DNA of 64,000 nucleotides from Halobacteriovorax sp. HLS (GTDB lineage Bacteria; Bdellovibrionota; Bacteriovoracia; Bacteriovoracales; Bacteriovoracaceae): positions 558,001-622,000 of the forward strand of contig NZ_QOCL01000014.1 of the NCBI RefSeq assembly GCF_004006665.1, written 5' to 3'. The position numbers were made by a program, and so were the translations under genes. Under the pieces are notes generated by a model, which saw only the letters and a list, made by a program, of their open reading frames with translations, made no database searches and was not told the origin of the DNA. Shown here piece after piece: positions 34,511 to 61,731 of this stretch (positions are counted from its first letter, which is position 1; each line of letters begins with the position of its first letter).

Positions 34511-34888
34511 GGGGGTGCCCTGGTTTCGACGGGTTTCTGGAAGTTTTGTGGGCGTGCCCAGGTTGGTCTCCATGGTCCTGGTAAAAAGGAGTCCAAAACA
34601 TAATTGCAAAATCTAACGATTACGCTATGCCAATGGCTGCTTAATTAGCAAAACCATAAAGCATGAGGGTCTTGCACCGATAACAAAAAGCAAGAAACCT
34701 TGTTAAGTCGGCAAATAAAAACGGGCTTGATGGAACTGCCATGCAAACCATCTTAAAAAACAATTGGGGTTTGCTGAGGTCGCGTATTTCAGACAGTCTT
34801 GTCTACTGACGATAACCGTAGACTACGCACGTAGTCCGCTCTATAGAAAGGAATTCGGACGCGGGTTCGATTCCCGCCACCTCCACCA
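34511..34888 (+). ncRNA. ssrA: Transfer-messenger RNA (tmRNA)
   Basis: The 5' end GGGGGUG pairs with CACCUCC near the 3' end to form a 7-bp acceptor stem followed by ACCA (34885-34888). The early segment T-G-G-T-T-T-C-G-A-C-G-G-G and the late T-loop GGTTCGATTCC are typical of tmRNA. The resume codon is GCA at 34606 and the tag reads A-K-S-N-D-Y-A-M-P-M-A-A before TAA (34642-34644). It rescues stalled ribosomes together with SmpB encoded at 586-1035. Confidence 0.96.
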
Positions 34889-36606
34889 ATCGAAATGCTA
34901 GACGAACTCTCGTCCATAAAGAGTTCGGGACTAGCATTTTTTTTTGCCTTTTTTTCAGACCTACCACCACCAGACGCATTGGCCACGCCTAGTGTCCTTC
35001 CACTTCTATAAAAAGGGAGCACAACCCCCTTTTCTCCACCAGAATTCCTCTGATCTTTATTCCCATTTTCTTTTGTCCACACGTTAATTTGAATCAAATT
35101 GTCAGGGCCGATATGGATACTTTTCATGACGCTCTTGGCAATCATTCTCTTCTTTTGCAGTTTGAATTTTCTAAATTTCTCAGAGCTGAGTTTCTTAAGG
35201 TTCTCCAAAACAAACTCTGGGTGAATTGTTTCAGGCTCTTCATTAGCAGCTTTGATCTCAAGTTCAGCTATCTGCTCCTGAACTCTCTCAAGCTCTTTTT
35301 CAGAGTCTTTAAGGCGATTTACAATAGCATCAACACTTCCGGCCAAATCACTGCTAGAGATAACATCTATTAATTTGTTGATTTGTCCTTGGAGGCTTTT
35401 CTCTTCTCGCTTTTTAGCCTTTAGCTGCCCCTTGTATTCAGGGGAGGTATGCACAGAAAGCTCTTTAAGAATTTCAATGAAGTCATCTTTAAGTGCTTGA
35501 TTGTTTAGGATACTAAAAAGATGTTTTTTGATCCTTTGTTCAAGCTCAATAGCGGGGTAGCGCTTTATCTGACACTCAGATTTCTTACTATGGCCATAAT
35601 AATAGTGCTTGTTGGTTTTTCCAGTAGCTGACTGACCAAATAGAGGCTGACCACACTCATCACAAGTTAATAGACCTGAAAGAATGAAGTCATGAGTTGC
35701 CTCATGTCTTACAGCTTTATTTGAGTCTAGGATTTTAGCAGCTTTGTTAAAATCAACTTCGCTTACTATTTTTTCCCATGAGGCATCTACAAAGTGATAC
35801 TTTTCAACGGTTTTTAGCTGACTTTGATCTAGCTCTTTATTTTCTTTATTGATTTCTCTTTTCCCCATATAAAATGGGTTCGTAAGAAGTCTATATAAAG
35901 ATGAGTGAGTAAATGGTTTTCCACCGTAGTTGATCCCATTTTTAGAAGTCCATGCCTTGTTATTAATATTGTTATTTTTCAAATACTTCAAAACCTCAGA
36001 GACTTGAGCCGTCTCTAAAAACACCTTGAACATTTTTTTTACAATTCGAGCTTCATCTTTATTAATAACTAATGAACCTGATTGAGTAGGGTGCTTGTCA
36101 AAACCTAAAATGGGAATGCCACCATTTAAAAGTCCCCTCAATGCTCTTGCATGGAAATTGTTTTTAATTCTTTCAGCAGTTAGCTCTCTTTCAAATTGTG
36201 CCAACGCCATAATGATTGTCATAAAGACTTTTCCGGCAGGGCTTGTAGTATCAAAGTCATATTGCAAACAAATAAAATCTGCTCCTAAATCTTCAAGCTC
36301 TTGAACAAAACTAAGAAAATCGGTAACTGATCTACTTAATCTTGAAAGCTCTGTGACAATGACAGTATCAATTTTATTACGTCTTACATCATCCAATAGC
36401 TTTTGATATTCAGGACGATCAGTATTTTTACCAGAAAAAGCTTCGTCTTTATAAATGCCAACAAGCTTCCCCCATTTGTTATTTTCATACCTATTTTTTT
36501 CTTCAATTTTTAGTTTGAGTCGTTGCAACTGAGAAGTAATAGAGCCTTCTTTATTTTTGGCTTGCTCTTCTGTACTTACACGACAATATATTCCAACTTT
36601 TCTCAT
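34789..36606 (-). CDS. Large serine recombinase / integrase
   Basis: A 605-codon open frame. It has an N-terminal resolvase domain with catalytic Ser11 in C-R-V-S-T-E-E-Q and L-S-R-L-S-R near 106, a recombinase domain with a C-D-E-C-G zinc ribbon (about 320-345) and a coiled-coil (about 395-450). It is the likely integrase of the element. The last ~100 nt run antisense through the tmRNA 3' end and the preceding ~50 nt through its terminator, so the true end before integration is uncertain. AGGATTAAGAT precedes the start. Confidence 0.88.
   Translation of the reverse strand: MRKVGIYCRVSTEEQAKNKEGSITSQLQRLKLKIEEKNRYENNKWGKLVGIYKDEAFSGKNTDRPEYQKLLDDVRRNKIDTVIVTELSRLSRSVTDFLSFVQELEDLGADFICLQYDFDTTSPAGKVFMTIIMALAQFERELTAERIKNNFHARALRGLLNGGIPILGFDKHPTQSGSLVINKDEARIVKKMFKVFLETAQVSEVLKYLKNNNINNKAWTSKNGINYGGKPFTHSSLYRLLTNPFYMGKREINKENKELDQSQLKTVEKYHFVDASWEKIVSEVDFNKAAKILDSNKAVRHEATHDFILSGLLTCDECGQPLFGQSATGKTNKHYYYGHSKKSECQIKRYPAIELEQRIKKHLFSILNNQALKDDFIEILKELSVHTSPEYKGQLKAKKREEKSLQGQINKLIDVISSSDLAGSVDAIVNRLKDSEKELERVQEQIAELEIKAANEEPETIHPEFVLENLKKLSSEKFRKFKLQKKRMIAKSVMKSIHIGPDNLIQINVWTKENGNKDQRNSGGEKGVVLPFYRSGRTLGVANASGGGRSEKKAKKNASPELFMDESSSSISIGGGGGNRTRVRIPFYRADYVRSLRLSSVDKTV
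34893..34945 (+). terminator. Terminator of ssrA
   Basis: A long interrupted stem, AAATGCTAG then CGAACTC on the left, pairs with GAGTTCG then CTAGCATTT on the right, followed by a run of T residues (34937-34945). It begins 4 bp after the tmRNA 3' end. It shows that the chromosomal ssrA terminator survived next to the element. Confidence 0.85.
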
Positions 36607-38754: not shown

Positions 38755-39498
38755 TTAAAACTCTAGTTTTTGGCCCTTTCTGTTTTTGAAGATGATCTTA
38801 TCTATCAATTTTAGTTCACTTTCTAATTTCAGAAAGTAAAACTTTGGTTCAAGATTTTGATAGTGAAGTTCTTCAAAATGTTTAATTTGTTTGATGATTG
38901 AATCGGTTTTACTGAAGTATAAAACCACATCAACTGCTGAGCTGATGTAATAATCAATCACTAATTGTTCATACCTTGTGGACTTTTTTTCACTCCGTTC
39001 AAATTCAATAGCCCCGTGATAGCGTTCATCGTCGAATTTTATCAGTGCATAACCATCACTATGAAGCTTTACGAACTGACTAGTTAAATCATCGTCAGTG
39101 AAATCTTCAAGACATTGAATTTGATTCTCAGAATAATACTGAAGCACATTTTTAGACTGCTTGAGGGACTCCCCAATATATATGAGGGGGAGATCATGCT
39201 CAATACTGTCACTTTTAAGTTGCTTGCGTATCAAGTCAAGTGGTCTTGATTCCCTTAATTTCTCAATGCCTTTGTCAGTTAAGTGAAAAATCTTTTGAAA
39301 ACGCTTTCCATGATAGAAAGAAGAGAAATCTATAAAGTGATTATTTTCCAACTTTTTTAATCTTTTTCTTAGATTGCACTCTTCACTTGTGGGATAACAA
39401 AACTGTTTGATCTGGGTAACACTTGCGGCCTTATATTTAAATAAAAACAAAAATAGGCAGAAATCCCTATCCGTTAGTTTTATCTTCGCTACTGCCAT
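38755..39498 (-). CDS. Replication-relaxation family-like protein (candidate relaxase-related)
   Basis: A 247-residue protein with a winged-helix-like N-terminus (L-T-D-R-D-F-C-L-F-L-F-L, then S-V-T-Q-I-K-Q-F-C, K-R-L-K-K-L and F-H-L-T-D-K-G) and a C-terminal nuclease-like part. The pattern resembles the replication-relaxation proteins of mobile elements. No classical MOB relaxase motif (three-histidine) is seen, so it is the best candidate for DNA processing. It overlaps the coupling ATPase gene by 32 bp. Confidence 0.6.
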   Translation of the reverse strand: MAVAKIKLTDRDFCLFLFLFKYKAASVTQIKQFCYPTSEECNLRKRLKKLENNHFIDFSSFYHGKRFQKIFHLTDKGIEKLRESRPLDLIRKQLKSDSIEHDLPLIYIGESLKQSKNVLQYYSENQIQCLEDFTDDDLTSQFVKLHSDGYALIKFDDERYHGAIEFERSEKKSTRYEQLVIDYYISSAVDVVLYFSKTDSIIKQIKHFEELHYQNLEPKFYFLKLESELKLIDKIIFKNRKGQKLEF

Positions 39499-40990
39499 TC
39501 TTTTTTTCTTTTTCGTTTTCAGATGCCTTCGTGATCACTTTCTTTTTTTCTCCTTCAACCTTTTCAAGGGCCACCATTGGGCCAAAAAAGGTTTTGGTTT
39601 TACTTTCGTACTCTTTTCCAAGCAGGGCCAATTCAGTTTCTAGTTCATCTTCTGATAAAAATGGTGCCTGAATTTCAGTAAATTTATTGCCACTGGCCCA
39701 GATGCCCCGGCCTTTAATATCAGGTAGATTTAGTGCCATTTTGTTTCCGAGTACTGTCATTGACCCCTGTAGGGTATTCATTTGAAAGCACATTCTCCCA
39801 CCAATGTTTTCTTGAACTTTGGTATCAATTGTTTCCTTGGTAACTTTTTGTGTTGCTAAAATAAGATGTATTCCGGCAGCACGGGATAATTTTGAAAGTT
39901 CATCAGTTAGTTCTCGGGCCTCTGTAATGTATTTCTTCTTAGCAGAGTCTGACTTTACCTTTGTATAAAGAACAGATGCTTCATCAACTCCAATGATAAT
40001 TTTATCCATCTTATCTCGTTTAGGGCTAATCTCTTTCAGTTTATTCTCTTCTAAGTAGTCAAAACGTCTGTCCATTTCATTCCTAAGATTTTTTAAAACA
40101 TTAACGGCGTCCTTTTCCGTTTTGATGACTTTCACGTTGGGTAGGTCTTCAAAAGGCCTCATTTCAACACCTTTTTTTAAATCCAAAAGGTAAAGCTGAA
40201 TGTTATTACTGCCCTTTAAAAGAGAGACCAGTGTTTGCTTGAAGAAAACACTTTTACCGCCACCTGTCGTTCCAGCAATCAACATGTGCGGCAAAGTTGA
40301 AATATCCTGAGTTAAAAAACCTCCTAGTGATTCACCAATTGAAAATGTGTAAGGACTATTTTTACTTTCAGGCATTTCATAGTAGCTGACTTTTTCAGCT
40401 AGTGATTTCTTTGTAAGGCTGAACTCTACAAACTTTGGGTTCTTGCAGGGTCTAATATCTTCTACAATTTGCCCAAGAGCGGTCGTGAGGTCGCTAACTT
40501 TAGATTGATAGCGATCAATTCCGATGCCTTCAGATTTTAAGAAGACCTTGGTTTTATAATCGTCAACCTCAATAACTCGAATAACTTTTGGAGCCGTTCC
40601 GTTGCCTGCTTTTAGCGAAAGAAAGTTAAAATCATTTTGATAAGATTTAATCTTTTTATACTCTCTTGCACCAATCAGAGGAAACGACAAAAACAATGCT
40701 CCTAATGAAAATAGGAGAAAGTATTTTACCCACGATAATTTTACAAAAAATTCTATTACTGTATCAGTAAAGGCAAACGGTAGTATCTTATTAAGAATTA
40801 CCAAAAAATCATAATTGTAGGTTAAAGAGAAAATTATCATTAATGCCAATGTGATATAAAACCATGTCATGGCAGATTTAACTTTTATTTTCTTTATTCC
40901 ATAATATGAAATATCAAAATAGATCATAAATAATTTTCCCAATGCGTCAAACAGCTTTCCGGCCGCTTCGTTACTTTTATCCTTCTTCAT
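39467..40990 (-). CDS. FtsK/SpoIIIE-like coupling ATPase
   Basis: A 507-residue protein with two N-terminal transmembrane helices (about 42-58 and 90-106) and a C-terminal FtsK-like motor. Walker A is at 239-247 (A-G-T-T-G-G-G-K-S) and Walker B near 331-337 (I-I-I-G-V-D-E), followed by A-R-E-L-T-D-E-L and A-T-Q-K. It probably replaces VirD4 as the coupling protein that feeds DNA to the secretion channel. It starts by ATGA overlap with the VirB10 gene. Confidence 0.8.
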   Translation of the reverse strand: MKKDKSNEAAGKLFDALGKLFMIYFDISYYGIKKIKVKSAMTWFYITLALMIIFSLTYNYDFLVILNKILPFAFTDTVIEFFVKLSWVKYFLLFSLGALFLSFPLIGAREYKKIKSYQNDFNFLSLKAGNGTAPKVIRVIEVDDYKTKVFLKSEGIGIDRYQSKVSDLTTALGQIVEDIRPCKNPKFVEFSLTKKSLAEKVSYYEMPESKNSPYTFSIGESLGGFLTQDISTLPHMLIAGTTGGGKSVFFKQTLVSLLKGSNNIQLYLLDLKKGVEMRPFEDLPNVKVIKTEKDAVNVLKNLRNEMDRRFDYLEENKLKEISPKRDKMDKIIIGVDEASVLYTKVKSDSAKKKYITEARELTDELSKLSRAAGIHLILATQKVTKETIDTKVQENIGGRMCFQMNTLQGSMTVLGNKMALNLPDIKGRGIWASGNKFTEIQAPFLSEDELETELALLGKEYESKTKTFFGPMVALEKVEGEKKKVITKASENEKEKKNGSSEDKTNG

Positions 40991-41931
40991 AAGTCTCCTT
41001 TTTTCATGTTGAGAGGTGCCATCAGTGAAATAATAAGATCAACTCCGGCATCTATTGTGACGTAGGGTTTTTCTGCTGATAGCTCCTGTGCTTGTCTAGC
41101 AGCCTCCATATCAGTTACTTTAGAAACCCCGTGGTAAAGTGCATTTTTCATTGTTGCCTTGGGTGTTACAGCACCACTTTCACCAAGGGCCTTCTTTTCG
41201 GTCAAGACCTCTGTCATTCCTGAAACCATACTCAATCCAAGGGTGGTGGCTATTCTGACTCCTGCCGTCCCGTGATAATCACCAAGTATTCCAGAGGAAT
41301 AATCATCAGGATTGAGGGCCTGAGCGTTAATTTCAACTTCCATGCCTGTTGGCAGAATCGCTTTAGCAAACTGGACAAATACTTTTTTACCATGTCCTGA
41401 GTATTTTGCAGTTCCTAGAAGAATAGTGTCGTTTGGCAATTTGCTTCGGCCTTTAAATGAACCACCATAGGGGAGCAAAACTTTAATAAACTGGTTTTGT
41501 TCACGGGTATCAATTCTACTAATTAATTTTCCAATGAAGTTTGTCCCTGTAGGGATTGCGTCTTGATAAGTTGCCAAGTCGGAACGAGATATAATTTGTT
41601 TTGCCATAAGTTTAATATTTGGCATTCTTTTTATACTTCTCGTTTTAACTTTTGATCTACTTTGATCACCAGCCTTTATGCCGCCGCCAATCTTTTTACT
41701 GCCAGTGACTATCTGTTCTGCTTCTTGAAACCTATCCGTATTGATTAGAGATTTATCCACCTTCTTTACAATTGCAGTATTTTCAACCTTACCAAACACT
41801 TGAGCCAAGATAATTGCCGTAATTATAAAGAAAATACTAATAAAGCTTATATTCCTCTTGTTTAGAGTGGACTTACCATCAGATTCAATAATAAAGACAG
41901 ACTTTAAACCTTCTTTTGCTTTTTTAATTAT
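40987..41931 (-). CDS. VirB10-like secretion channel protein, probable ATA start
   Basis: The C-terminal TrbI/VirB10 domain (about G-K-L-I-S-R-I-D onward, with I-L-L-G-T-A and A-K-A-I-L-P-T-G-M) is recognisable. From a TTG at 41808 the protein would lack its inner-membrane anchor. In frame upstream lies a basic segment and a helix S-F-I-S-I-F-F-I-I-T-A-I-I, and the frame is open to ATA at 41931, eight bases after GAGG; no ATG, GTG or TTG lies between. The ATA overlaps the VirB9 stop as ATAA. The start is my inference; at minimum the gene is 40987-41808. Confidence 0.75.
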   Translation of the reverse strand: MIKKAKEGLKSVFIIESDGKSTLNKRNISFISIFFIITAIILAQVFGKVENTAIVKKVDKSLINTDRFQEAEQIVTGSKKIGGGIKAGDQSRSKVKTRSIKRMPNIKLMAKQIISRSDLATYQDAIPTGTNFIGKLISRIDTREQNQFIKVLLPYGGSFKGRSKLPNDTILLGTAKYSGHGKKVFVQFAKAILPTGMEVEINAQALNPDDYSSGILGDYHGTAGVRIATTLGLSMVSGMTEVLTEKKALGESGAVTPKATMKNALYHGVSKVTDMEAARQAQELSAEKPYVTIDAGVDLIISLMAPLNMKKGDL

Positions 41932-42638
41932 AAGAACTGCCTCGAAATGATTAATCTATTTACATCGTCCTTATTGAAAAATTGCAGGGTAAAACCTTCC
42001 TTTTTCTTTAGGTTAAAAAATATGCGCCCCTTTATCCCAAGATTCTTTTCAATCCTTTGGCCAGAAAAAATCAATCTTTGCTCTGGAAGTTTGATCTTCG
42101 AGCGAGTAAGAAACAGGTCAACGTCTTTTATGTTGATTGCGTTCTTGCTATTGTTGAAAAGGCTGAAATCAAGAACATAAAAATTGGGCTTGAGTTCCGT
42201 TACTTTCTCAAGAGAGCAGTTAAGCTTTGATTTTAGCTTAAGACTCTTATTGAGGGTTTTCGCTGACAGCTTAATTTTCTTAGGCTTACTCATCCTCGGT
42301 GATTTCCAAGATACGTTCACAAGATCGTCATAACCGGAGAAATTACCAGCATTTAAAATGAATCCAAAAGTATGGTATTCACCATAAACAAAGAGATTTG
42401 TTTTAACTGGCCCTTGAGGCTGTATGGTAATATCGTTTCCAATAAATTCCACATTGAAGTAATTTTGATTTCCAACCACAACCTTTTTGGGTGTTTCCTT
42501 AAATCTTAATACTGTTGACTGTCCCAACTTCAAATAGATTGTTCTCATCTCCTTTGAAGAAACTTGTATTGTTCTAATATTTCCTGCTAATGCAATTTCT
42601 ACAGTAAAGAGCAAACCTAATAATAAGAATAGTTTCAT
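41928..42638 (-). CDS. VirB9-like secretion channel protein
   Basis: A 236-residue exported protein with a signal peptide (ending E-I-A-L-A-G). The N-terminus resembles VirB9 or secretin-like beta-rich domains (Y-L-K-L-G-Q-S-T-V-L-R-F and I-T-I-Q-P-Q-G-P). A second beta-rich half follows (D-V-D-L-F-L-T-R-S-K-I). It sits between VirB8 and VirB10, the canonical order. GAGGTAAAATAA precedes the start. Confidence 0.7.
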   Translation of the reverse strand: MKLFLLLGLLFTVEIALAGNIRTIQVSSKEMRTIYLKLGQSTVLRFKETPKKVVVGNQNYFNVEFIGNDITIQPQGPVKTNLFVYGEYHTFGFILNAGNFSGYDDLVNVSWKSPRMSKPKKIKLSAKTLNKSLKLKSKLNCSLEKVTELKPNFYVLDFSLFNNSKNAINIKDVDLFLTRSKIKLPEQRLIFSGQRIEKNLGIKGRIFFNLKKKEGFTLQFFNKDDVNRLIISRQFL

Positions 42639-43211
42639 TTATTTTACCTCGTGTTCTATAAGTCCATTGACGTAAAGCCCCAGTGGATTCCACTTGTTGG
42701 GTGAGTCCTTTATTATTTGCAATGAAATTTGGGTCACTGATATAAAAGGGACACCCTTTAGTCGAATAATCCTGTCAAATTGAGATACGACCTCTTTATC
42801 TGTTATTGACACCTTAATGTTGCCAACATATTGGCGATACTCAGGAGTTGGCTTTGAATCCTTCTTTGTTTTGCTTTTTATTAGATTTAAAAAATCAGCA
42901 GTTACAAAGGGGTGGATATTATTCATCATGATATCTTTATCTAGCTTTTCCCATTCGTAATTGGCTTTAATAAAAGCGATTACAAATTTTTCAATCTCAT
43001 TTTTTCCAATATCGGTACTTTTTCTCGTTGAAGAGTACCTTTCAGTATTTTCACCACTCTTTTCTATGACCACAGGTGGAAGTGTTGCTACATAGGCCAA
43101 GATAGAAAGAGTTAAAAGAAGGCATCCAGCTAATGAAAAACATATTACTCTGTAGCTGTGTGTAATCCTATTGAGAGCAAGCCATTGTCCTCTTGCATTT
43201 AAATTACTCAT
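42639..43211 (-). CDS. VirB8-like inner-membrane protein
   Basis: A 190-residue bitopic protein with one transmembrane helix (about 20-45, V-I-C-F-S-L-A-G-C-L-L-L-T-L-S) and a periplasmic domain ending D-S-P-N-K-W-N-P-L-G-L-Y-V-N, which fits VirB8. The ATG at 43211 follows GGAGTAAAAAAG and overlaps the end of the VirB6 gene; an upstream start at 43250 lacks such a site. Confidence 0.78.
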   Translation of the reverse strand: MSNLNARGQWLALNRITHSYRVICFSLAGCLLLTLSILAYVATLPPVVIEKSGENTERYSSTRKSTDIGKNEIEKFVIAFIKANYEWEKLDKDIMMNNIHPFVTADFLNLIKSKTKKDSKPTPEYRQYVGNIKVSITDKEVVSQFDRIIRLKGVPFISVTQISLQIIKDSPNKWNPLGLYVNGLIEHEVK

Positions 43212-44160
43212 CTTTTTTACTCCTATTTTTAAAATCAACTTTGACGACATTTTTTGGAAGCACAGTTGGTTTAGTATTCATTTTTTTTGAGAAATGTTCT
43301 CTTGCCCCAGTTAATCCAGATTTCATACCTGTTCCCATGCGATTAAATCCACTCGCAGTTCCCTGCATGGCACCTTTGCCAAGTTTTTTACCTTGTCTTT
43401 TAGAAAACTCGGTAACGACTTTTCCGGTTGCTAATGTCGGTGCTGCTGCAAGTGCAGATGCCGCACTAGACATTCCATCATTGATTAATGATTTAGTTGT
43501 AAAAGGAATAAAGAGCATTGAAAGACCAATGCAGAGATTTACAAGAATACTTGTAAGAAAATTATCCCAATCACCAACTGCAGGGCTGGTTGCAAGTTTA
43601 AGTAGCATTACACCTAAAATCGACCATAGTATTTTCCATGTAACCACATTAATAAGTCCTTTATAAAGATTGGACGTTACAAATGACGTTCTTCCAGAAA
43701 TATACATAAGAATCATAAGTGGTGAGCAGACATATAGAACTGACCACACAAAATGAACTAGCACATTGGCCACAAATACACCGACATAGGCAATGATATA
43801 AGAGAGGAGATTTAAAATAAAAATCACGGCCTCTCTAAACTTTAACCAACTAACTTCTGATTCGTTGTAGTTTTGTTCCAAGTGTTTCATTAAATCACTA
43901 AGCTGAGTTAGCCCATTTATTTTGTTTGCCACCCCATCACCAACCATTGCAATTGCATTGATACATTGATCAAATGAAATCAATAGAATAATGGATATGA
44001 CCACTCTTTTTAAAATAACTGAAACATTCGGATTTCCCTCTGGGAGCTTAAAAAACTCAAATATGATCGTTAAAAGCGTAAAGGGTACGATGAGTATCCA
44101 GTACAGCTCTTGCATATTTGTATTTAGCTCCTTACACACCTCGGGTAAGTATTCAAACAT
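43204..44160 (-). CDS. VirB6/TrbL-like polytopic inner-membrane protein
   Basis: A 318-residue protein with about six hydrophobic helices in residues 1-220 (W-I-L-I-V-P-F-T-L-L-T-I, V-V-I-S-I-I-L-L-I-S, A-V-I-F-I-L-N-L-L-S-Y-I, W-S-V-L-Y-V-C-S-P-L) and a basic cytoplasmic tail with a Gly-rich stretch. Order, topology and neighbours fit VirB6/TrbL. It overlaps VirB5-like by one base and VirB8-like by 8 bp. Confidence 0.75.
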   Translation of the reverse strand: MFEYLPEVCKELNTNMQELYWILIVPFTLLTIIFEFFKLPEGNPNVSVILKRVVISIILLISFDQCINAIAMVGDGVANKINGLTQLSDLMKHLEQNYNESEVSWLKFREAVIFILNLLSYIIAYVGVFVANVLVHFVWSVLYVCSPLMILMYISGRTSFVTSNLYKGLINVVTWKILWSILGVMLLKLATSPAVGDWDNFLTSILVNLCIGLSMLFIPFTTKSLINDGMSSAASALAAAPTLATGKVVTEFSKRQGKKLGKGAMQGTASGFNRMGTGMKSGLTGAREHFSKKMNTKPTVLPKNVVKVDFKNRSKKDE

Positions 44161-44858
44161 CAGAATTTCTGTAGTTTCATACTTCCGTCAAAATTTTTAA
44201 GGTTGCTTTTAATATCACTATTAATTTTATTAAAATGACCTACGCTATCTTTTCCTGCCTTATTATTCATAGCTAAGCTCTCACTTTGAAGCTTCAAAAT
44301 CTGCCCATTGATACGGAGCAATTGATTTAGAGTATGAAGAATTTTAGAGTTTGTTTCAGCAGTCATTCTTGCAGCTCCTTTAGGAGAAGCACGTCTACTT
44401 TGTATTGAAATCTTGTTGGCATTTTCCTCCTGATTTTTTGCATACTTTTTGATATTGCTGGCCATTTTTATACTTTCAGCAACACTTTGGTCATGTAGCA
44501 TTTGTAATGCGGCTTCATCAGATTTTGGAATGGCCCCATAAACCTCTTGAATAGTATTGAAAGCCTTTTGAAAATTATGAAGCTCTGATAAAATTCTCTC
44601 GTCCTTTATAGGAAGTGAGTTTAATAGACCCAGTGAATTTTCAAGACCTGAGTTAATAAGTCTTATATATTGATCTCTATTTCTTGCCGTATCCACCATT
44701 GATTTTAATTGCTGATAACGTTTGATATTTTCAGCTAATATTTTAACCAAATAGGGGATTTGTGCCCATCCCGCACCACCATCACCCCAAAAGGCATAAG
44801 AAGATGGGGCCTGAAGTATCAAGAGTGAGCTTACAATTAGTACTTTTAGTTTTTTTAT
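44160..44858 (-). CDS. VirB5/TrbJ-like exported protein, probable ATA start
   Basis: A VirB5/TrbJ-like helical protein. The nearest standard start is TTG at 44822, which would lack the beginning of a signal peptide. The frame is open upstream to ATA at 44858, four bases after AAGGAGG, and the 12 extra codons complete a typical signal peptide (M-K-K-L-K-V-L-I-V-S-S-L-L-I-L-Q-A-P-S-S). The ATA overlaps the VirB4 TAA stop as ATAA. Mature helices follow. TrbJ-type proteins are minor pilus components or mating-pair adhesins. The ATA start is inferred. Confidence 0.72.
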   Translation of the reverse strand: MKKLKVLIVSSLLILQAPSSYAFWGDGGAGWAQIPYLVKILAENIKRYQQLKSMVDTARNRDQYIRLINSGLENSLGLLNSLPIKDERILSELHNFQKAFNTIQEVYGAIPKSDEAALQMLHDQSVAESIKMASNIKKYAKNQEENANKISIQSRRASPKGAARMTAETNSKILHTLNQLLRINGQILKLQSESLAMNNKAGKDSVGHFNKINSDIKSNLKNFDGSMKLQKF

Positions 44859-47269
44859 GCTGCCTCCTTGTCGTTATAGGCAAGTTTTTTAAGAATTTCT
44901 ATTGTCTTCAACTTTGGAAACTTCTTTTTCATTTCTTCGATTTGGGCCTTGTCGAAACCATCTGTTGTACAGACCCAATAGCTCAAGGGATCAGGTATAA
45001 GTCTAAGAACAATTTTTCTTTCATCTTGCATGTAGAGAAATTCAGAATATTCCCCTTTGACCAGTTCAAGGCTTTTAACTACTGCCGTTTCATCCCCCGT
45101 GAAATCCATAGTCTTTTGAAAATCTTCCCAATCGATCTTTCTTTGTCTTAAAATGAAGACACTACTTGTATTTGGGAAAACGGCATTTTTAATTTCTTGA
45201 TTACTCAAAAAATCTTTGTAGTTTTGGCTTATGCACCAGATGCCCCCATTAAACTTTCTAAAGGTTCGATAAGCTTCCATTGTGAAACTCAACCCACTTT
45301 TTGTTTCAAAAAGCTTCCATGCTTCATCAATGATAAGAAGATAAGGTTTTGAAGTATCTTTAGCCGCTTCATTTTTAATGAAGTCAGTAAAGAGAAGAAG
45401 AAAAACATTTTGGAGATCCGAATAAGTATCAAGTCCTTTCATTTCAATAGTAATCAAATCTTTTGAAAGGGTGACATTACTTTGACCATCAAGCATCCTT
45501 CCGTAGGCCGTATTACCTGTCCATGAGTAAAGTATTTCGGCGTACTTATTTATTTCAGGATTACGATGCTTTTCTAAGACTTCTTTATAATCACTGAGAG
45601 TCGGCGTTTTCCCATACAACTTATCATAAGTCATAAAAATTGCTTCTTCTAGCAGCGCCTTATCTCTCTTGGGTAGGCCATTTGAATCTTCATCTTTTAG
45701 AATTGATTCCAGTGCAGCTAAAATAAGTTTTACCTTTGATGTTGACGGCGTTTTTTCACCATTAAGATCAAACATATTAAGACAAATTTTAGAATCAATA
45801 TTTAGATCAATGAATTCACCACCAAGAACCTCTAATAATCTTTGAGAGGAAGCACCATTATCAATCCAAACAATTTTAGGAGTTGGGTTTTGTCCATAAA
45901 ATTGGAGCATCAACTGACAGATCGTAAAACTTTTCCCAGCACCAGACCCACCAAATATTAAACCGTTCCAATTCGGTAGTTCCTTCGCAAAGGGATCAAG
46001 GGCAAATAGTGAATAGTCCCGAGAAGGTATTAAGCATACAGGCGTACTGTTGCCTTGCCAGTTTCCATATACTGGGCAAAGATGGCTTGCGTTAGAGCTT
46101 TTGACCTTTTTATCTCTAAGTCCTCTACAGATTCCTGGGGCTGAACCAATAAAGGCATCAAGAGAAGGAAAACTCTCAATAAGGCCTTCGCTCTGGTTTA
46201 ATGCTTTAAATGCTTTCAAAAGGGTATCTGTCTTATTATCTAGCTCCTCAATGCTTTCGTCCCAAATGACTACACTTATATTCATAGAGACAAGTTTTTC
46301 CGAACCATCAAGGAGTTCCCTAATTAGCTCTTCGATTTGACCTAATTTGCTTTCAGATTCAAGATCGGACACGTTTTTACTACCAGATGCCATTGAATGG
46401 GCAATTCTTCTCTGAAGTTGCAGCCTCTCTAATTCTTTTTTCTGATCTTCAATTTTAATTCCTTGTGATAACCAGAAATGAAATGGAAGTTTCGTGAACT
46501 CATGAATCATAGCAGAATAGGTTACCCCTTCTGGAAGAATACCAAGAGTGATCACTCGAAATTTCTTATCCCCAATTTCAATGTATTGCTTTGAATATGA
46601 AGCATCAGTTAAAGCAATTTGTTCGCTAAAGTTTGGTGCCAAGTATAAAGATTCATCCCTATACTTAGGTACTCCTAACTTTTCCATGCGATCCAGATTA
46701 AAGTATTCAAAACATAAAGTGTGCCATTCTGATGATGCGAGAGTCGTGGGACTCAATGAACAGTGGTTAAGTGCATTCTCAATCTGACGACTTGATCTCA
46801 AAAACTTCTTTTTAAATGCATCATATTCAGTTTTTAATATTGGTTCATACTTTTTTAGTGATTCCCAAAACTTTTGCTTTGAATATTTATGCTTGCTACT
46901 TCTTACGAAGAGATAGACCTCGCTTTTAAAGTAATTCTGATATTCAATATTACTTTTGAAAAACTCTGTTCTTGCTTCTTGAATATCAAAATACACGCTG
47001 GGTGCTGATTTACTCACAGCTCTATGCGCATCAGTTTTTTCTCGGTAGTTTGAATTAACCTTATAAAAGAACTGTAAATTTAAACCCTCATCAATTCCGG
47101 TTAAAAGATGTTCAAGGCTTATGGAAAGCTGATTGATTTTTTCAGAATCGGTACAGTTGATGTCAAAACCTTCAAGCTTATAACCTTTGCCGAGGCTTCC
47201 ATCCTCAAAGACCATAATTTCATTATCAAAATGCCAATAGGGCATCTTATCTTTTAAACTTAGACTCAT
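44855..47269 (-). CDS. VirB4/TrbE-type secretion ATPase
   Basis: An 804-residue ATPase of the VirB4 family, with Walker A near 439-447 (G-G-S-G-A-G-K-S), Walker B near 645-650 (L-L-I-I-D-E-A-W) and R-K-F-N-G-G-I-W-C-I-S-Q-N motif downstream. The N-terminal domain has the family's G-L-N-L-Q-F-F-Y region. It energises pilus assembly and transfer. The stop is also the overlap site of the VirB5-like start. It overlaps VirB3 by 23 bp. Confidence 0.93.
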   Translation of the reverse strand: MSLSLKDKMPYWHFDNEIMVFEDGSLGKGYKLEGFDINCTDSEKINQLSISLEHLLTGIDEGLNLQFFYKVNSNYREKTDAHRAVSKSAPSVYFDIQEARTEFFKSNIEYQNYFKSEVYLFVRSSKHKYSKQKFWESLKKYEPILKTEYDAFKKKFLRSSRQIENALNHCSLSPTTLASSEWHTLCFEYFNLDRMEKLGVPKYRDESLYLAPNFSEQIALTDASYSKQYIEIGDKKFRVITLGILPEGVTYSAMIHEFTKLPFHFWLSQGIKIEDQKKELERLQLQRRIAHSMASGSKNVSDLESESKLGQIEELIRELLDGSEKLVSMNISVVIWDESIEELDNKTDTLLKAFKALNQSEGLIESFPSLDAFIGSAPGICRGLRDKKVKSSNASHLCPVYGNWQGNSTPVCLIPSRDYSLFALDPFAKELPNWNGLIFGGSGAGKSFTICQLMLQFYGQNPTPKIVWIDNGASSQRLLEVLGGEFIDLNIDSKICLNMFDLNGEKTPSTSKVKLILAALESILKDEDSNGLPKRDKALLEEAIFMTYDKLYGKTPTLSDYKEVLEKHRNPEINKYAEILYSWTGNTAYGRMLDGQSNVTLSKDLITIEMKGLDTYSDLQNVFLLLFTDFIKNEAAKDTSKPYLLIIDEAWKLFETKSGLSFTMEAYRTFRKFNGGIWCISQNYKDFLSNQEIKNAVFPNTSSVFILRQRKIDWEDFQKTMDFTGDETAVVKSLELVKGEYSEFLYMQDERKIVLRLIPDPLSYWVCTTDGFDKAQIEEMKKKFPKLKTIEILKKLAYNDKEAA

Positions 47270-49734: not shown

Positions 49735-50760
49735 TTAAAAGAAGTATCCGTCCCAAAAATCTTGGTCACTAGGATCAAATGCGTCATCATACTCTTTTTC
49801 ATACCAATCACAGAACTTTTCATCTTCTTCTAATTTACCTAGAGAAGCGAGTGATTCCTCTAATTCTCTATTGTCTTTCTTGCTTCCTGATTCCCAATCT
49901 TCTGTTAAGTACTTTCTTGAAATAGCATCATTTATTTCATCTTCTTCACCAAACTGTAGTTTTGGATGTGGATGATCGTAAAAGTTTCTAAGAAGCATTC
50001 TTTTAACAAGATTAGAAAATACCCCAAGGTTATGTTTTACATCTTTGACTTTTTCATCAAGAAGCTGTTGGTATGTTGCTACACCTGTTGCTTTCTTTGC
50101 TTCCTGAACATCTATTTTATCTTTTTTGCTTTCAAGCTCATTTATGTATTTGTCTTTTTTATCAATTTCATCCACCATTTCATTTATTTCGTCTTGAAGG
50201 CTCTCTTTTTCATTTGTGAGAGAATTAAACTTTTCAAAAGGAACGGTGTTTATATCTGGCTGCTTAATTTTAATTTTTTTGGCAGTTTCAATATATTTTT
50301 CTACAATACTTTTCCATCTGCCATCGCCAGTGGGGTTAATTGTACTTTTTTCTTTTATTGTTTTTCTAATATTGTATATGGAGTTATCATCTAAGATTTT
50401 CTCACAATGATTTTGAACATTAAGTGGACCTACTGATTGAAATGAAACAGGTTCAATTAAAATGGGAATAACATGACAATCAGCTAACCAAGATGCACCC
50501 ATTTCATTTAAGCAAATTTCACTACATTTATAATTTTCTGAAATCATTAGAAAGGAAATTTCAGCAGGCTTAAGTGCATTTTTTATTTCTGTTACAAAAT
50601 TATCGCCTGACAGGTTTCCAAGCCCCTGCATGGAAGAACAGTATATTTCATCATCGTTTATTCTAAGTCCTTTAACCAAAATATCATCAACAAAGAGTGA
50701 TACAATTTTTTCATCTAATGACGAATGGCTGACGAAAAACCGCTTTTGAGTTTTTGACAT
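49735..50760 (-). CDS. TIR-domain protein with coiled coil
   Basis: A 341-residue protein. The N-terminal TIR domain (about 5-150) has F-F-V-S-H-S-S-L-D and the motif C-L-N-E-M-G-A-S-W with Glu86 in the position of the NAD-hydrolysing glutamate of bacterial TIR proteins. A coiled coil (about 175-235) and an acidic C-terminus follow. Many TIR proteins act in anti-phage abortive responses; that role here is inferred. AGAGGTAAATT precedes the start. Confidence 0.85.
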   Translation of the reverse strand: MSKTQKRFFVSHSSLDEKIVSLFVDDILVKGLRINDDEIYCSSMQGLGNLSGDNFVTEIKNALKPAEISFLMISENYKCSEICLNEMGASWLADCHVIPILIEPVSFQSVGPLNVQNHCEKILDDNSIYNIRKTIKEKSTINPTGDGRWKSIVEKYIETAKKIKIKQPDINTVPFEKFNSLTNEKESLQDEINEMVDEIDKKDKYINELESKKDKIDVQEAKKATGVATYQQLLDEKVKDVKHNLGVFSNLVKRMLLRNFYDHPHPKLQFGEEDEINDAISRKYLTEDWESGSKKDNRELEESLASLGKLEEDEKFCDWYEKEYDDAFDPSDQDFWDGYFF

Positions 50761-57308: not shown

Positions 57309-57503
57309 GTGACTGAACCTGAACGATGGTACTCCGTCGAGGAAATCGCATTACATTTAGGAGTTTCTAAAGAAACGATCTATCGCTGGGTAGAAAAGGA
57401 AAAGATTCCTGCTCATAAGGTTGGTCGACAATGGAAATTTAAGGTCAGTGAAGTTGATGAGTGGGTTACTTCTGGTGGAGCAAAGGAAAAGGGGAAAATA
57501 TGA
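57309..57503 (+). CDS. Excisionase-type helix-turn-helix protein of the restriction operon
   Basis: A 64-residue MerR-like/excisionase-family HTH (W-Y-S-V-E-E-I-A-L-H-L-G-V-S-K-E-T-I-Y-R-W, then I-P-A-H-K-V-G-R-Q-W-K-F). Starts at GTG 57309. It overlaps hsdM by 4 bp (ATGA), a common arrangement for regulators of type I restriction operons; it is probably not an excisionase in function. Confidence 0.8.
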   Translation: MTEPERWYSVEEIALHLGVSKETIYRWVEKEKIPAHKVGRQWKFKVSEVDEWVTSGGAKEKGKI

Positions 57504-59236
57504 GTGAGAAAATAACTTTAGGTCAATTAGAACAATTCTTATGGGGTGCCGCTGATATTCTTCGTGGAAGTATGGATGCTTCTGAATATAAAGATTATGT
57601 TTTTGGATTTTTGTTTTTAAAAAGACTGTCGGATCAATTTGATGAAGAACGTGAATCAATAGCTGCTTCGTGGAAGAAAAAGGGTAAAACTCAAGGGCAA
57701 ATTGATAAACTTCTTGAAGAAGAAGATGAATATGACTCTTTTTTTATTCCACCACGGGCGCGTTGGGAAAATATTAAGGATTTGAAAAAAGATATTGGTT
57801 CGGAATTAAACAAAGCATCTGAAGCAATAGAAGAATACAATGAAGCAATTGAAGGGGTTCTTCAGGCCATTGACTTTAATAATAAAAACAAACTTTCAGA
57901 TAAAAAACTTCGTGATTTACTATCTCATTTTTCAAAGCATCGACTCAGGAATATTGATTTTGAAAGTTCCGATCTACTAGGGTCAGCTTACGAGTATTTG
58001 ATAAAACAGTTTGCTGACTCAGCGGGGAAAAAGGGTGGAGAATTTTATACACCATCAGAAGTCGTACGTTTAATTGTAGAATTAATTAAACCAAAAGCTG
58101 GAATGAAGATATACGATCCAACTTGCGGCTCAGGAGGAATGCTTCTTCAAGCTCGGCATTATTTAGAAGAGCATGGGGAAGACCCTGAAAATATGGTACT
58201 TGCTGGACAGGAACTAAATTTATCAACATGGGCCATTTGTAAAATGAATATGTTTTTACATGGTGTTTATAGTGCAGATATTAGAAAAGGAGATACCCTA
58301 TCTACGCCACAACATACAGAAAATGGAGAGCTTAAAACATATGATCGTGTTGTCGCCAATCCACCTTTCTCTTGGGCATGGGACCCAAACTCTGTTGAAG
58401 ATGATACTTATGGGCGATTTCCATTTGGGATACCAAGTAAGTCTGCGGCTGACTTGGCGTTTGTTCAACATATGCTAGCCTCTTTGAATGGCGAAGGGAT
58501 GATGGGGGTGGTAATGCCTCATGGAGTATTGTTTAGAGGTTCAAAAGAAAGAGACATTCGAAAAGGTATCATTGAAGCTGAACGATTGGAAGCGGTTATC
58601 GGACTACCTTCAGGGCTTTTTTATGGAACAGGGATTCCTGCATCAATTTTAATTTTAAATAAAAAGAAACCTGAAGATAGAATAGGCAAAGTTTTATTTA
58701 TAAATGCTGAATTGGACTATGAGTTAGGAAAGAATCAAAATAAGTTAAGAGACCAAGATATTTCAAAAATAGTAAAGGCATTTACTGATTTTAAAACTTA
58801 CAGCTTGTACAATCATGATGAAAAACATTTTAGTAGAGTTGTTACGGTTAAAGAAATTGAAGGAAATGATTTTAATCTAAATATTCGACGTTATGCTGAT
58901 ACTTCTGCGCCTCCAGAAATATTTGACGTTAAAGCTATATTAAGTGGGGGAATTCCAAAGTATGAAGTCGAAGATGGATATATACAAGATATCCTCAATG
59001 GTTTTGATATTATTACTGTCTTTGATGAAAGAGATACAGATTACTATATTTTTAAGAGAGAAATAGATTCAAAAGAGAAAATTCGAGAAGTCACAGGTGA
59101 CATTGATCAAAATATAATTTTTCAGCTTGAAAGATGGTGGGATAAATATTCGTTTTCTTTAAGAGAGATAGAAAGTCAATGTATTGAAGTTGAAAAAGAG
59201 ATGAATCTATTTCTTAAGGAATTGAGCTATGAGTAA
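57500..59236 (+). CDS. hsdM: Type I restriction-modification methyltransferase HsdM
   Basis: A 578-residue N6-adenine methyltransferase subunit. I start it at 57500 (AAGGGGAAAAT before ATG); an earlier in-frame Met at 57461 lacks a site. It shows the N-terminal HsdM domain, G-S-A-Y-E-Y-L-I, D-P-T-C-G-S-G-G-M-L (SAM binding) and N-P-P-F-S (catalytic). With HsdS it methylates the recognition site in host DNA. Confidence 0.95.
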   Translation: MSEKITLGQLEQFLWGAADILRGSMDASEYKDYVFGFLFLKRLSDQFDEERESIAASWKKKGKTQGQIDKLLEEEDEYDSFFIPPRARWENIKDLKKDIGSELNKASEAIEEYNEAIEGVLQAIDFNNKNKLSDKKLRDLLSHFSKHRLRNIDFESSDLLGSAYEYLIKQFADSAGKKGGEFYTPSEVVRLIVELIKPKAGMKIYDPTCGSGGMLLQARHYLEEHGEDPENMVLAGQELNLSTWAICKMNMFLHGVYSADIRKGDTLSTPQHTENGELKTYDRVVANPPFSWAWDPNSVEDDTYGRFPFGIPSKSAADLAFVQHMLASLNGEGMMGVVMPHGVLFRGSKERDIRKGIIEAERLEAVIGLPSGLFYGTGIPASILILNKKKPEDRIGKVLFINAELDYELGKNQNKLRDQDISKIVKAFTDFKTYSLYNHDEKHFSRVVTVKEIEGNDFNLNIRRYADTSAPPEIFDVKAILSGGIPKYEVEDGYIQDILNGFDIITVFDERDTDYYIFKREIDSKEKIREVTGDIDQNIIFQLERWWDKYSFSLREIESQCIEVEKEMNLFLKELSYE

Positions 59237-60479
59237 GTTTCCGGCGGATTGGAATCAAGAGAGTTTAAAGAATTTTACAACTGAAAGAACAACGGGGGCA
59301 AATTTTAAGCCATCTGAATTTACAGAAAGTGGTAAAGAGGTAATTCCGAAGAAGGGAATAAATGAAAATGGGATATTGTTCATTCCTAATGGAAACAAGG
59401 CTTATGTCTCAAATGAAATAGCTAAAAGTTATAAAAAAGCTAATATTGATGGATCATTCTTGGTGACTGTTTTTAGGGATTTGGTACCGACTGGTCCCTC
59501 TCTTGGAAGAATAGTAAAAATAAATAGCGACAAGAAATACATTTTGGCTCAAGGAACTGGGGCTTTTAAAACTAACAGTGCGATAGATACAGATTATTTA
59601 ATTCAATTCTCTAATAGTGATTATTTCCGTAGAGAAATGGGACTCATTACGGTTGGTAGCACACAAGTATTTGTTAAAGGTGAAGATTATTATTCGGTCC
59701 CAATATTCTATCCCTCGATAAGCGAACAGAAAAAAATAGGAAAAATTCTAACAACAGTAGATAGGGCTATCTTATTAGCCGAAAATGAAATTGATAAACT
59801 TAAAAACTTGAAAAAAGGGATGATGCAAGACCTTTTTACCAAAGGCATTGGGCATACTCAGTTTAAGAATAGCCCAATAGGTAAGATTCCTGCAACATGG
59901 GATGCACACATTGGAAAAAAATTTTTAATTTTAGGAGGAGGACCTTCTCCTTCGAGCGTGAACTTTAAGAATCATGGCGACACGCTTTATATAAAAGTTG
60001 ATGACTTTAATTCTGATGGTAACGAAGACTTTATTGAAAAATCTTTTCTGTCTTTTGATCGTAATGAAAATGATTCTATAAATATTTATGACAAGGGAAC
60101 GTTAGTAATTGCGAAGCGTGGCGCAGCCATATTAAAAAACAGAGTAAGGCAATTAACTAGAAAAACATCAATCGATACTAACCTTATGGCAATAACTTGT
60201 AAGAAGTATATGTCAGAAAGGTTTTTAAAATATTATTTGGAGTTGAGTCGACTTGATAAACTTGCAGATACTACCTCTATTCCACAGATAAATAACCCAC
60301 ATTTAAATGAAATCTTTTATCCTTGCCCACCTAAAGTGGAACAAGAGAAAATTATAAGAATCCTTGATTCCGCTGGAGTTATAATAAAAGAAAAGTTGTT
60401 AAGGATAAGGAAATTAAAAAATTTAAAAAAAGGCTTAATGCAAGACCTCCTCACTGGAAGAGTCAGAGTCAGGGTTTAA
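59229..60479 (+). CDS. hsdS: Type I restriction-modification specificity subunit HsdS
   Basis: A 416-residue protein with two variable target-recognition domains, each followed by a conserved repeat (L-K-N-L-K-K-G-M-M-Q-D-L-F and L-K-N-L-K-K-G-L-M-Q-D-L-L). It overlaps hsdM by 8 bp. The DNA sequence recognised cannot be predicted here. Confidence 0.94.
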   Translation: MSKFPADWNQESLKNFTTERTTGANFKPSEFTESGKEVIPKKGINENGILFIPNGNKAYVSNEIAKSYKKANIDGSFLVTVFRDLVPTGPSLGRIVKINSDKKYILAQGTGAFKTNSAIDTDYLIQFSNSDYFRREMGLITVGSTQVFVKGEDYYSVPIFYPSISEQKKIGKILTTVDRAILLAENEIDKLKNLKKGMMQDLFTKGIGHTQFKNSPIGKIPATWDAHIGKKFLILGGGPSPSSVNFKNHGDTLYIKVDDFNSDGNEDFIEKSFLSFDRNENDSINIYDKGTLVIAKRGAAILKNRVRQLTRKTSIDTNLMAITCKKYMSERFLKYYLELSRLDKLADTTSIPQINNPHLNEIFYPCPPKVEQEKIIRILDSAGVIIKEKLLRIRKLKNLKKGLMQDLLTGRVRVRV

Positions 60480-60486
60480 CAAATAT

Positions 60487-61731
60487 ATGAAATCATTTGA
60501 GGAATATATTCATGAAAGGATAAGTATCGAGATAGTAGATTCATTCTTTTCCATTAATGATTTTTATTTTTATCCAAGTGAAATTTTAAAGTCTATAGCT
60601 CCAAAAGAGTTCGAATCAATATGCTACGACTTAGACATCAATCTCGATTCGAATAACATTGAGTTAAGAGAAAATCTTGATCCTGAGTTATCATTAAACT
60701 TTTCAAAGGATCATATTGATATTTCAGGTAATAGATTTTCAATATTGGAGGTAATAAAAGAAGGCTATCCAGAGATGCTTGATGTCCTTAAAGCAGGATT
60801 TGAAGATTATAAGAAAGAAGAGCTAGGGAAAAATGAACAAACTTTAAAAGTTATCAAAGAAGAGAAGGCCTCAGGTATCCATGCATTAAAAAGTGAGATC
60901 GTTCTGTCTTATCCTTCGCCAATCTCCTTTTCATTTCACAATTATCTGTATGCCTCATCTAGTGAAAGTGAAAGATACTCATATTTGAAAGATTGCTGGG
61001 AATCAATCATCTATGTATTGTTCTCGATTGTATTGTCTGAATATCTTCAAAATAAAGTCTGGCGCGCTTTTAAAGATATAAAAATAAGTGATATTTATGA
61101 CTTTAGCATCAGTAAGAAATTGGGAGTGATGAAAAAGTTGATTGAGTTTCAAGACCCATTGACAACAGACTTTATTTCCAATGAGGTTTTGTCCCTAACG
61201 ATTATTGAAAAATTGATTAAATTAAATAAAGACAGGAATAATGCATTTCACAATCAAACACAGTCAGAGGCTATCCTAAAAAGAAGAAATAGTGAGAATT
61301 TAAATAAGATAATAGATATTGTTAGAGAATTAACTTTTTTGAAGGATCTTAAATATTCTCTTTTTCAAGGAGTTGATAAACTTTTTAGTAATAAAATATT
61401 TTTTGATGAGTTCGTAGGTCACTCGTGGAACAAAAAGATAATAAAAAAGCAATTTAAGAAAAAAGTCACACCTCCTCTCGTTGGATGTAATGTTTTGCTG
61501 CGCTACAAACAGCAAGTATTATGCGTTTCACCATTCCTACACTTTAAACTAAGGGAAGGTTTCAATGAACATCGCTTGGCTTATTTAAAATCCAAAAAAA
61601 ATGGAATTCTATCATTTGAAATAGTTGGAGCTTCTGGTGAAAGTGCTCAGTTTAATGAGAAATCATCTTCTTTTTCAATTATAGAAAAACTAGAGCGTGA
61701 AAAAAATAGAATATCGACAGGGAAGGTATAG
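60487..61731 (+). CDS. HEPN-like protein inserted between hsdS and hsdR
   Basis: A 414-residue protein of unknown family. The motif R250-N-N-A-F-H255 is an Rx4H HEPN ribonuclease signature, set in a helical region (about 165-300). The N- and C-terminal parts are not recognised. It starts 7 bp after hsdS and ends 2 bp before hsdR, so it is co-transcribed. By analogy with PrrC/RloC-type nucleases encoded in type I loci it may be a back-up RNase triggered when restriction fails; this is inference. Confidence 0.7.
   Translation: MKSFEEYIHERISIEIVDSFFSINDFYFYPSEILKSIAPKEFESICYDLDINLDSNNIELRENLDPELSLNFSKDHIDISGNRFSILEVIKEGYPEMLDVLKAGFEDYKKEELGKNEQTLKVIKEEKASGIHALKSEIVLSYPSPISFSFHNYLYASSSESERYSYLKDCWESIIYVLFSIVLSEYLQNKVWRAFKDIKISDIYDFSISKKLGVMKKLIEFQDPLTTDFISNEVLSLTIIEKLIKLNKDRNNAFHNQTQSEAILKRRNSENLNKIIDIVRELTFLKDLKYSLFQGVDKLFSNKIFFDEFVGHSWNKKIIKKQFKKKVTPPLVGCNVLLRYKQQVLCVSPFLHFKLREGFNEHRLAYLKSKKNGILSFEIVGASGESAQFNEKSSSFSIIEKLEREKNRISTGKV

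Follow-up and report, generated by a model that had tools for sequence, protein, structure and literature searches.

The virB5-like and virB10 genes of a type IV secretion system (T4SS) operon of the marine predatory bacterium Halobacteriovorax sp. HLS very probably both start at an ATA codon, as judged from their sequence context and from comparison with homologous loci. AUA is a very rare start codon. Start codons of the same class, AUH (AUA, AUU or AUC), occur repeatedly in these two genes across the phylum, and this recurrence suggests selection for weak translation. It is likely that the AUH codons act as weak starts which are discriminated by initiation factor IF3 and rescued by a Shine-Dalgarno (SD) site or by coupling to the upstream gene, and that they keep the amounts of VirB5 and VirB10 low.

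The operon is chromosomal and lies on the minus strand of the window (the whole analysed stretch of 64,000 nucleotides); the nearest named relative of the locus is found in Halobacteriovorax sp. SP2999. The genes follow each other in the order virB2-like (47892), virB3-like (47681), virB4/TraC ATPase (44855..47269; Pfam TraG P-loop 7e-31, TIGR02746 1e-86), virB5-like (44160..44858), virB6-like (43204..44160; TrbL/VirB6 2e-4), virB8-like (42639..43205; weak VirB8 match), virB9-like (41928..42638; CagX 2e-5, TIGR02781 1e-5), virB10 (40987..41931) and FtsK-like coupling ATPase (39467..40990; PF01580 5e-24). The junctions are tight, with overlaps of the ATGA and TGATG types. The virB6-like, virB8-like and virB9-like genes and the coupling ATPase have canonical ATG starts, which overlap the virB5 stop as TGATG (virB6), lie near the virB6 stop (virB8) or overlap the virB10 stop as ATGA (coupling ATPase). 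Read from ATA, VirB10 has 314 residues and consists of a cytoplasmic tail, a predicted membrane anchor (residues ~28–46) and a TrbI/VirB10 domain scoring above the curated cut-off (PF03743, 7.8e-13, 49.1 bits vs 35). The product of the virB5-position gene has 232 residues and carries the predicted signal peptide MKKLKVLIVSSLLILQAPSSYA. It gave no matches in Pfam, NCBIfam or PDB, and no recognisable VirB5 domain was found; its position, its secretion signal and a low-confidence all-helix model make it a putative VirB5-like protein. Identification through the predicted structure was rejected, as the model was too poor (pLDDT 49).

The context of the virB5-like start on the minus strand (44858) is GACAAGGAGGCAGC ATA AAA AAA CTA, or AAGGAGGCAGC ATA A in its short form, and that of the virB10 start (41931) is TTTCGAGGCAGTTCTT ATA ATT AAA AAA, in short GAGGCAGTTCTT ATA A. 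Direct reading of the sequence bears out the initial annotation, which had claimed that neither place offers ATG, GTG or TTG and that ATA (44856..44858 and 41929..41931) overlaps the preceding TAA as ATAA. The stops involved are those of the upstream neighbours virB4 (44857-44855) and virB9 (41930-41928), so that both starts have the geometry of coupled gene pairs. The SD sites it had named were found as well: a strong AAGGAGG (44863..44869) 4 nt before the virB5 ATA and a weak GAGG (41940..41943) 8 nt before the virB10 ATA, the virB10 genes of other clades having strong sites. No canonical start is present upstream of either ATA within the open frame. The earliest in-frame canonical codons are TTG 44822, within the VirB5-like signal peptide, and TTG 41808, beyond the VirB10 membrane anchor; as had been stated, the extension from ATA restores both elements. 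The second codon of virB10 is ATT (TAATT overlap), and it is a possible alternative near-cognate start in the window; the relatives have ATA (or ATT-ATA) in common and not this ATT.

It is very improbable that downstream canonical codons are the real starts and the open region before them is untranslated. Gene callers usually accept ATG, GTG and TTG only, which speaks for such starts, as do some virB5 copies (G126, G037, G008, G104 and G279) where an in-frame ATG or TTG is located 4–6 codons past the ATA; these codons have no good SD site and could be used in place of ATA. In the window such starts would leave the VirB5-like protein without its signal peptide and VirB10 without its membrane anchor. 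Among relatives the positions of the downstream codons differ and the SD site stays at the AUH codon, and at least 14 AUH copies have no canonical codon for at least 27 codons and none upstream.

The homologous junctions were compared, as the initial annotation had proposed. The four nearest relatives found belong to different genera and have 62–91% identity in the VirB5 and VirB10 proteins. In all four virB5 has ATA, not ATG, after GGAGGCAGC or GGAGGCATC, and the string GGAGGCA(G/T)CATAA is common to the five genomes (the window and these relatives). ATA is also present at virB5 in G104, G167 and G279, so that seven relatives in total keep it. For virB10, four of the five genomes, the window's among them, have ATA overlapping TAA or TAG, and the fifth has ATT-ATA; the stop at this junction is never TGA, which would yield ATG. 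Four-fold silent sites are 28–46% identical among the five genomes, close to saturation. Every genome of the five has a wobble A in only 4 of the 138 virB4 columns and in none of the 34 of virB9, yet the wobble A of ATA is kept at both junctions, so the start codons are conserved between species beyond the neutral expectation. Chance and sequencing error are excluded because the codons are conserved in relatives and the control genes described below are canonical. A sequencing error, a pseudogene or a programmed frameshift fusing VirB4 to VirB5 and VirB9 to VirB10 is hardly conceivable as the explanation, the one point in its favor being the canonical start missing from both frames. Identical codons are present in independent assemblies of several genera, the VirB5 and VirB10 frames are intact and the proteins conserved, the sequence ahead of the stops shows no evident slippery site, and a fusion would bury the signal peptide.

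The initial annotation had described the ATA starts in one element; they are not peculiar to it, since AUH starts recur across the phylum in both virB5 and virB10. Profile searches covered 369 genomes of the phylum for virB5 and 129 genomes of the family for virB10, and the inspection took in 63 distinct copies of virB5 and 45 good copies of virB10. A start was called AUH when an AUH codon occupied the position determined by the SD site and no usable canonical start was present; in distant relatives some starts were assigned by hand or by eye. With the window included, a usable canonical start is missing from 19 of the 63 distinct virB5 copies (10 ATA, 8 ATT, 1 ATC) and from about 18 of the 45 virB10 copies (11 ATA, 7 ATT). 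The genes virB2, B3, B4, B6, B8 and B9 of the same loci served as controls. At strong SD sites a codon-blind test gave 26 AUH to 15 canonical codons in virB5 and virB10 vs 2 to 41 in the controls (Fisher 5e-9, an optimistic value as related loci were counted as independent). A cruder test, the absence of any canonical codon between −25 and +10, gave 22/107 vs 0/199 and counted related loci in the same way. No convincing AUH start was seen among 342 ORFs of 400 kb of the host chromosome. The identity of the codons, their conservation, the placement of the SD sites and the near-restriction of AUH starts to virB5 and virB10 are thus read directly from the DNA. A search for relatives on plasmids and viral contigs found none.

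On the virB5 tree the AUH state is clustered. One clade of 44 members contains six changes of state, at least four of them through well-supported branches, a clade of 19 members is wholly canonical, and within one supported clade AUA and AUU interchange. Several relatives have an ordinary ATG, GTG or TTG in virB5, virB10 or both, which means that weak starts are not obligatory. The coupling ATPase of the G028/G129 clade (L043, L044, L045, L170) has ATT after a strong SD site. The virB5 of G035 (L046/L047, C12/C13) reads GGAGGTTAACTTT, and the SD window ahead of its signal peptide contains no NTG and no ATH codon; this virB5 is preceded by a DNA methyltransferase-like gene.

The position of the start relative to the preceding stop is not uniform. 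Among the 37 AUH starts, 17 form the 4-nt overlap ATAA or ATAG, five share one base with the stop (ATTAA or ATTAG), six overlap in other ways, seven lie after the preceding stop (27 nt after it in virB5 of G078) and two were left without an assigned geometry. The overlap register fixes the third base of the start: it is A (with TAA or TAG) or G (with TGA) in the 4-nt overlap and T in the 1-nt overlap. Judged from these sequences, the conserved trait is the class of AUH start, presumably a weak one, after an SD site and not the ATAA overlap.

This distribution bears on termination-reinitiation proper, in which only ribosomes fresh from termination at the overlapping UAA would initiate at AUA, tying VirB5 and VirB10 to the translation of VirB4 and VirB9 at a low ratio. 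The 22 starts that form the 4-nt overlap or share one base with the stop are in line with it, and the weak SD site of virB10 in the window suggests that coupling may matter most at this gene. Since AUH starts also occur after the previous stop, it cannot be the general mechanism; several SD sites are very strong and would allow de novo initiation, and no conserved RNA hairpin (no covarying pairs) was detected at the virB5 junction. As the sole route to these starts it is therefore rather doubtful, and it may be helpful where genes overlap. The earlier proposal that the element limits expression by termination-reinitiation survives in part: low expression is still the natural purpose of such starts, but the route to it is not general, as seven of the 37 show.

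A different origin of the ATAA form would be an ancestral ATGA turned into ATAA by selection or drift towards TAA, with the ATA start as a tolerated side effect bringing no benefit. A single G-to-A change is sufficient for this, TAA is the commonest stop of the host (201 TAA, 90 TAG and 51 TGA in the 342 ORFs), and ATGA and TTGA are present at the same junctions in distant relatives. This origin is nevertheless quite unlikely, for it leaves unexplained both the ATT and ATC starts without stop overlap and the canonical starts of virB6, virB8 and virB9.

The preferred explanation is that of weak, IF3-discriminated starts. In this mechanism virB5 and virB10 would be initiated by fMet-tRNA at AUA (AUU or AUC in relatives), and IF3 would discriminate against this class of start codons. 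The SD site directly upstream would rescue initiation, and at overlapping genes the ribosomes terminating on the upstream gene would contribute to the rescue. Synthesis of VirB5 and VirB10 would then be low in comparison with their operon neighbours and would probably depend on the level of IF3, so that the amounts of both proteins may follow the state of the translation machinery. Initiation at AUH, low expression and IF3 control are all three what we infer from the comparison of loci. The reason for limiting VirB10 is not obvious, because VirB9 and VirB10 normally occur in stoichiometric amounts. A genetic code in which AUA means Met was considered and rejected: of 167 aligned residues facing internal ATA codons, 121 are Ile and 4 are Met. 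No initiator tRNA gene was found in the window, where the search yielded only a tmRNA.

Conserved AUA and AUU starts with strong SD sites are already known elsewhere, namely in infC and ccpN. The classic example of a start controlled by IF3 is the AUU of infC in other bacteria (PMC5472188). In the host, infC starts as GGAGGTGATTT ATT, a layout equal to that of several virB5 and virB10 starts, e.g. CAGGAGGTGCTTT ATT. The infC genes of the window genome and its genus (L156, L150, L152, L153, L159, L162) have TGGAGGTGATTT followed by ATT, and that of G009, from the same family, has ATA. With infC, virB5 and virB10 share an AUH codon a few nucleotides past the SD site, a conserved codon class and an interchangeable third base, and an IF3-sensitive start of the infC type would fit all AUH cases. 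In contrast to infC, they are secretion genes and do not encode IF3, they often overlap the upstream stop, and their dependence on IF3 is presumed by analogy. In reporters in S. aureus, starts of this kind gave about 10–30% of the AUG expression, AUA and AUU giving about 10% (PMC13009471). The same study describes ccpN/cvfC1 of Staphylococcus and Bacillus, whose conserved non-canonical starts, AUA included, and extended SD sites resemble the present ones; these genes do not encode secretion subunits, they belong to another phylum, and an ATAA overlap is not described for them in the section consulted (PMC13009471). IF3 also represses the non-canonical GTC start of Streptomyces sigR, which keeps the output of one operon gene lower than that of its partner (PMC5472188). 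This effect is similar to the one proposed here, but the codon is GTC and not AUH, the ATGA overlap there is on the partner gene, and the start does not recur as a feature of a multiprotein machine (PMC5472188). The geometry of translational coupling by ATGA or TAATG is shared by the present genes, ATAA being a one-base variant of it, with the difference that here the start codon is itself non-canonical. No relevant paper on non-canonical starts or translational coupling in T4SS or conjugation came up in a literature search.

On a broader level it is conceivable, with confidence slightly short of even, that AUH starts discriminated against by IF3 serve a phylum-wide T4SS lineage as a built-in translational control, placed specifically at virB5 and virB10 and in one clade also at the coupling ATPase. 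The building of the machine for DNA transfer would thereby be tied to the state of IF3 and the ribosome, or subunit ratios would be set. If true, this would be systematic non-AUG initiation within a multiprotein machine. Two subunits of this machine have kept or regained AUH starts several times across the phylum. To our knowledge, only a handful of bacterial genes keep AUU, AUA or AUC starts. The occurrence of ATA, ATT, ATC and ATG at the same genes provides a natural comparative series for selection on weak starts, and it also bears on IF3 control beyond its own gene. Standard gene callers are blind to AUH starts and will trim away the signal peptides and membrane anchors that follow them; we suggest that they accept such starts after strong SD sites.

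Two further features of the window were noted. A tmRNA gene (34511-34888) and the gene of a large serine recombinase (34789-36606) lie on opposite strands, and the 3' part of the former overlaps the end of the latter. This arrangement resembles a site where a mobile element has integrated, but the window yielded no second copy of the 3' end of the tmRNA. Near the T4SS operon, ORF translations read by eye point to a TIR-domain-like protein and a type I restriction-modification cluster (49735-50760, 57461-61731).
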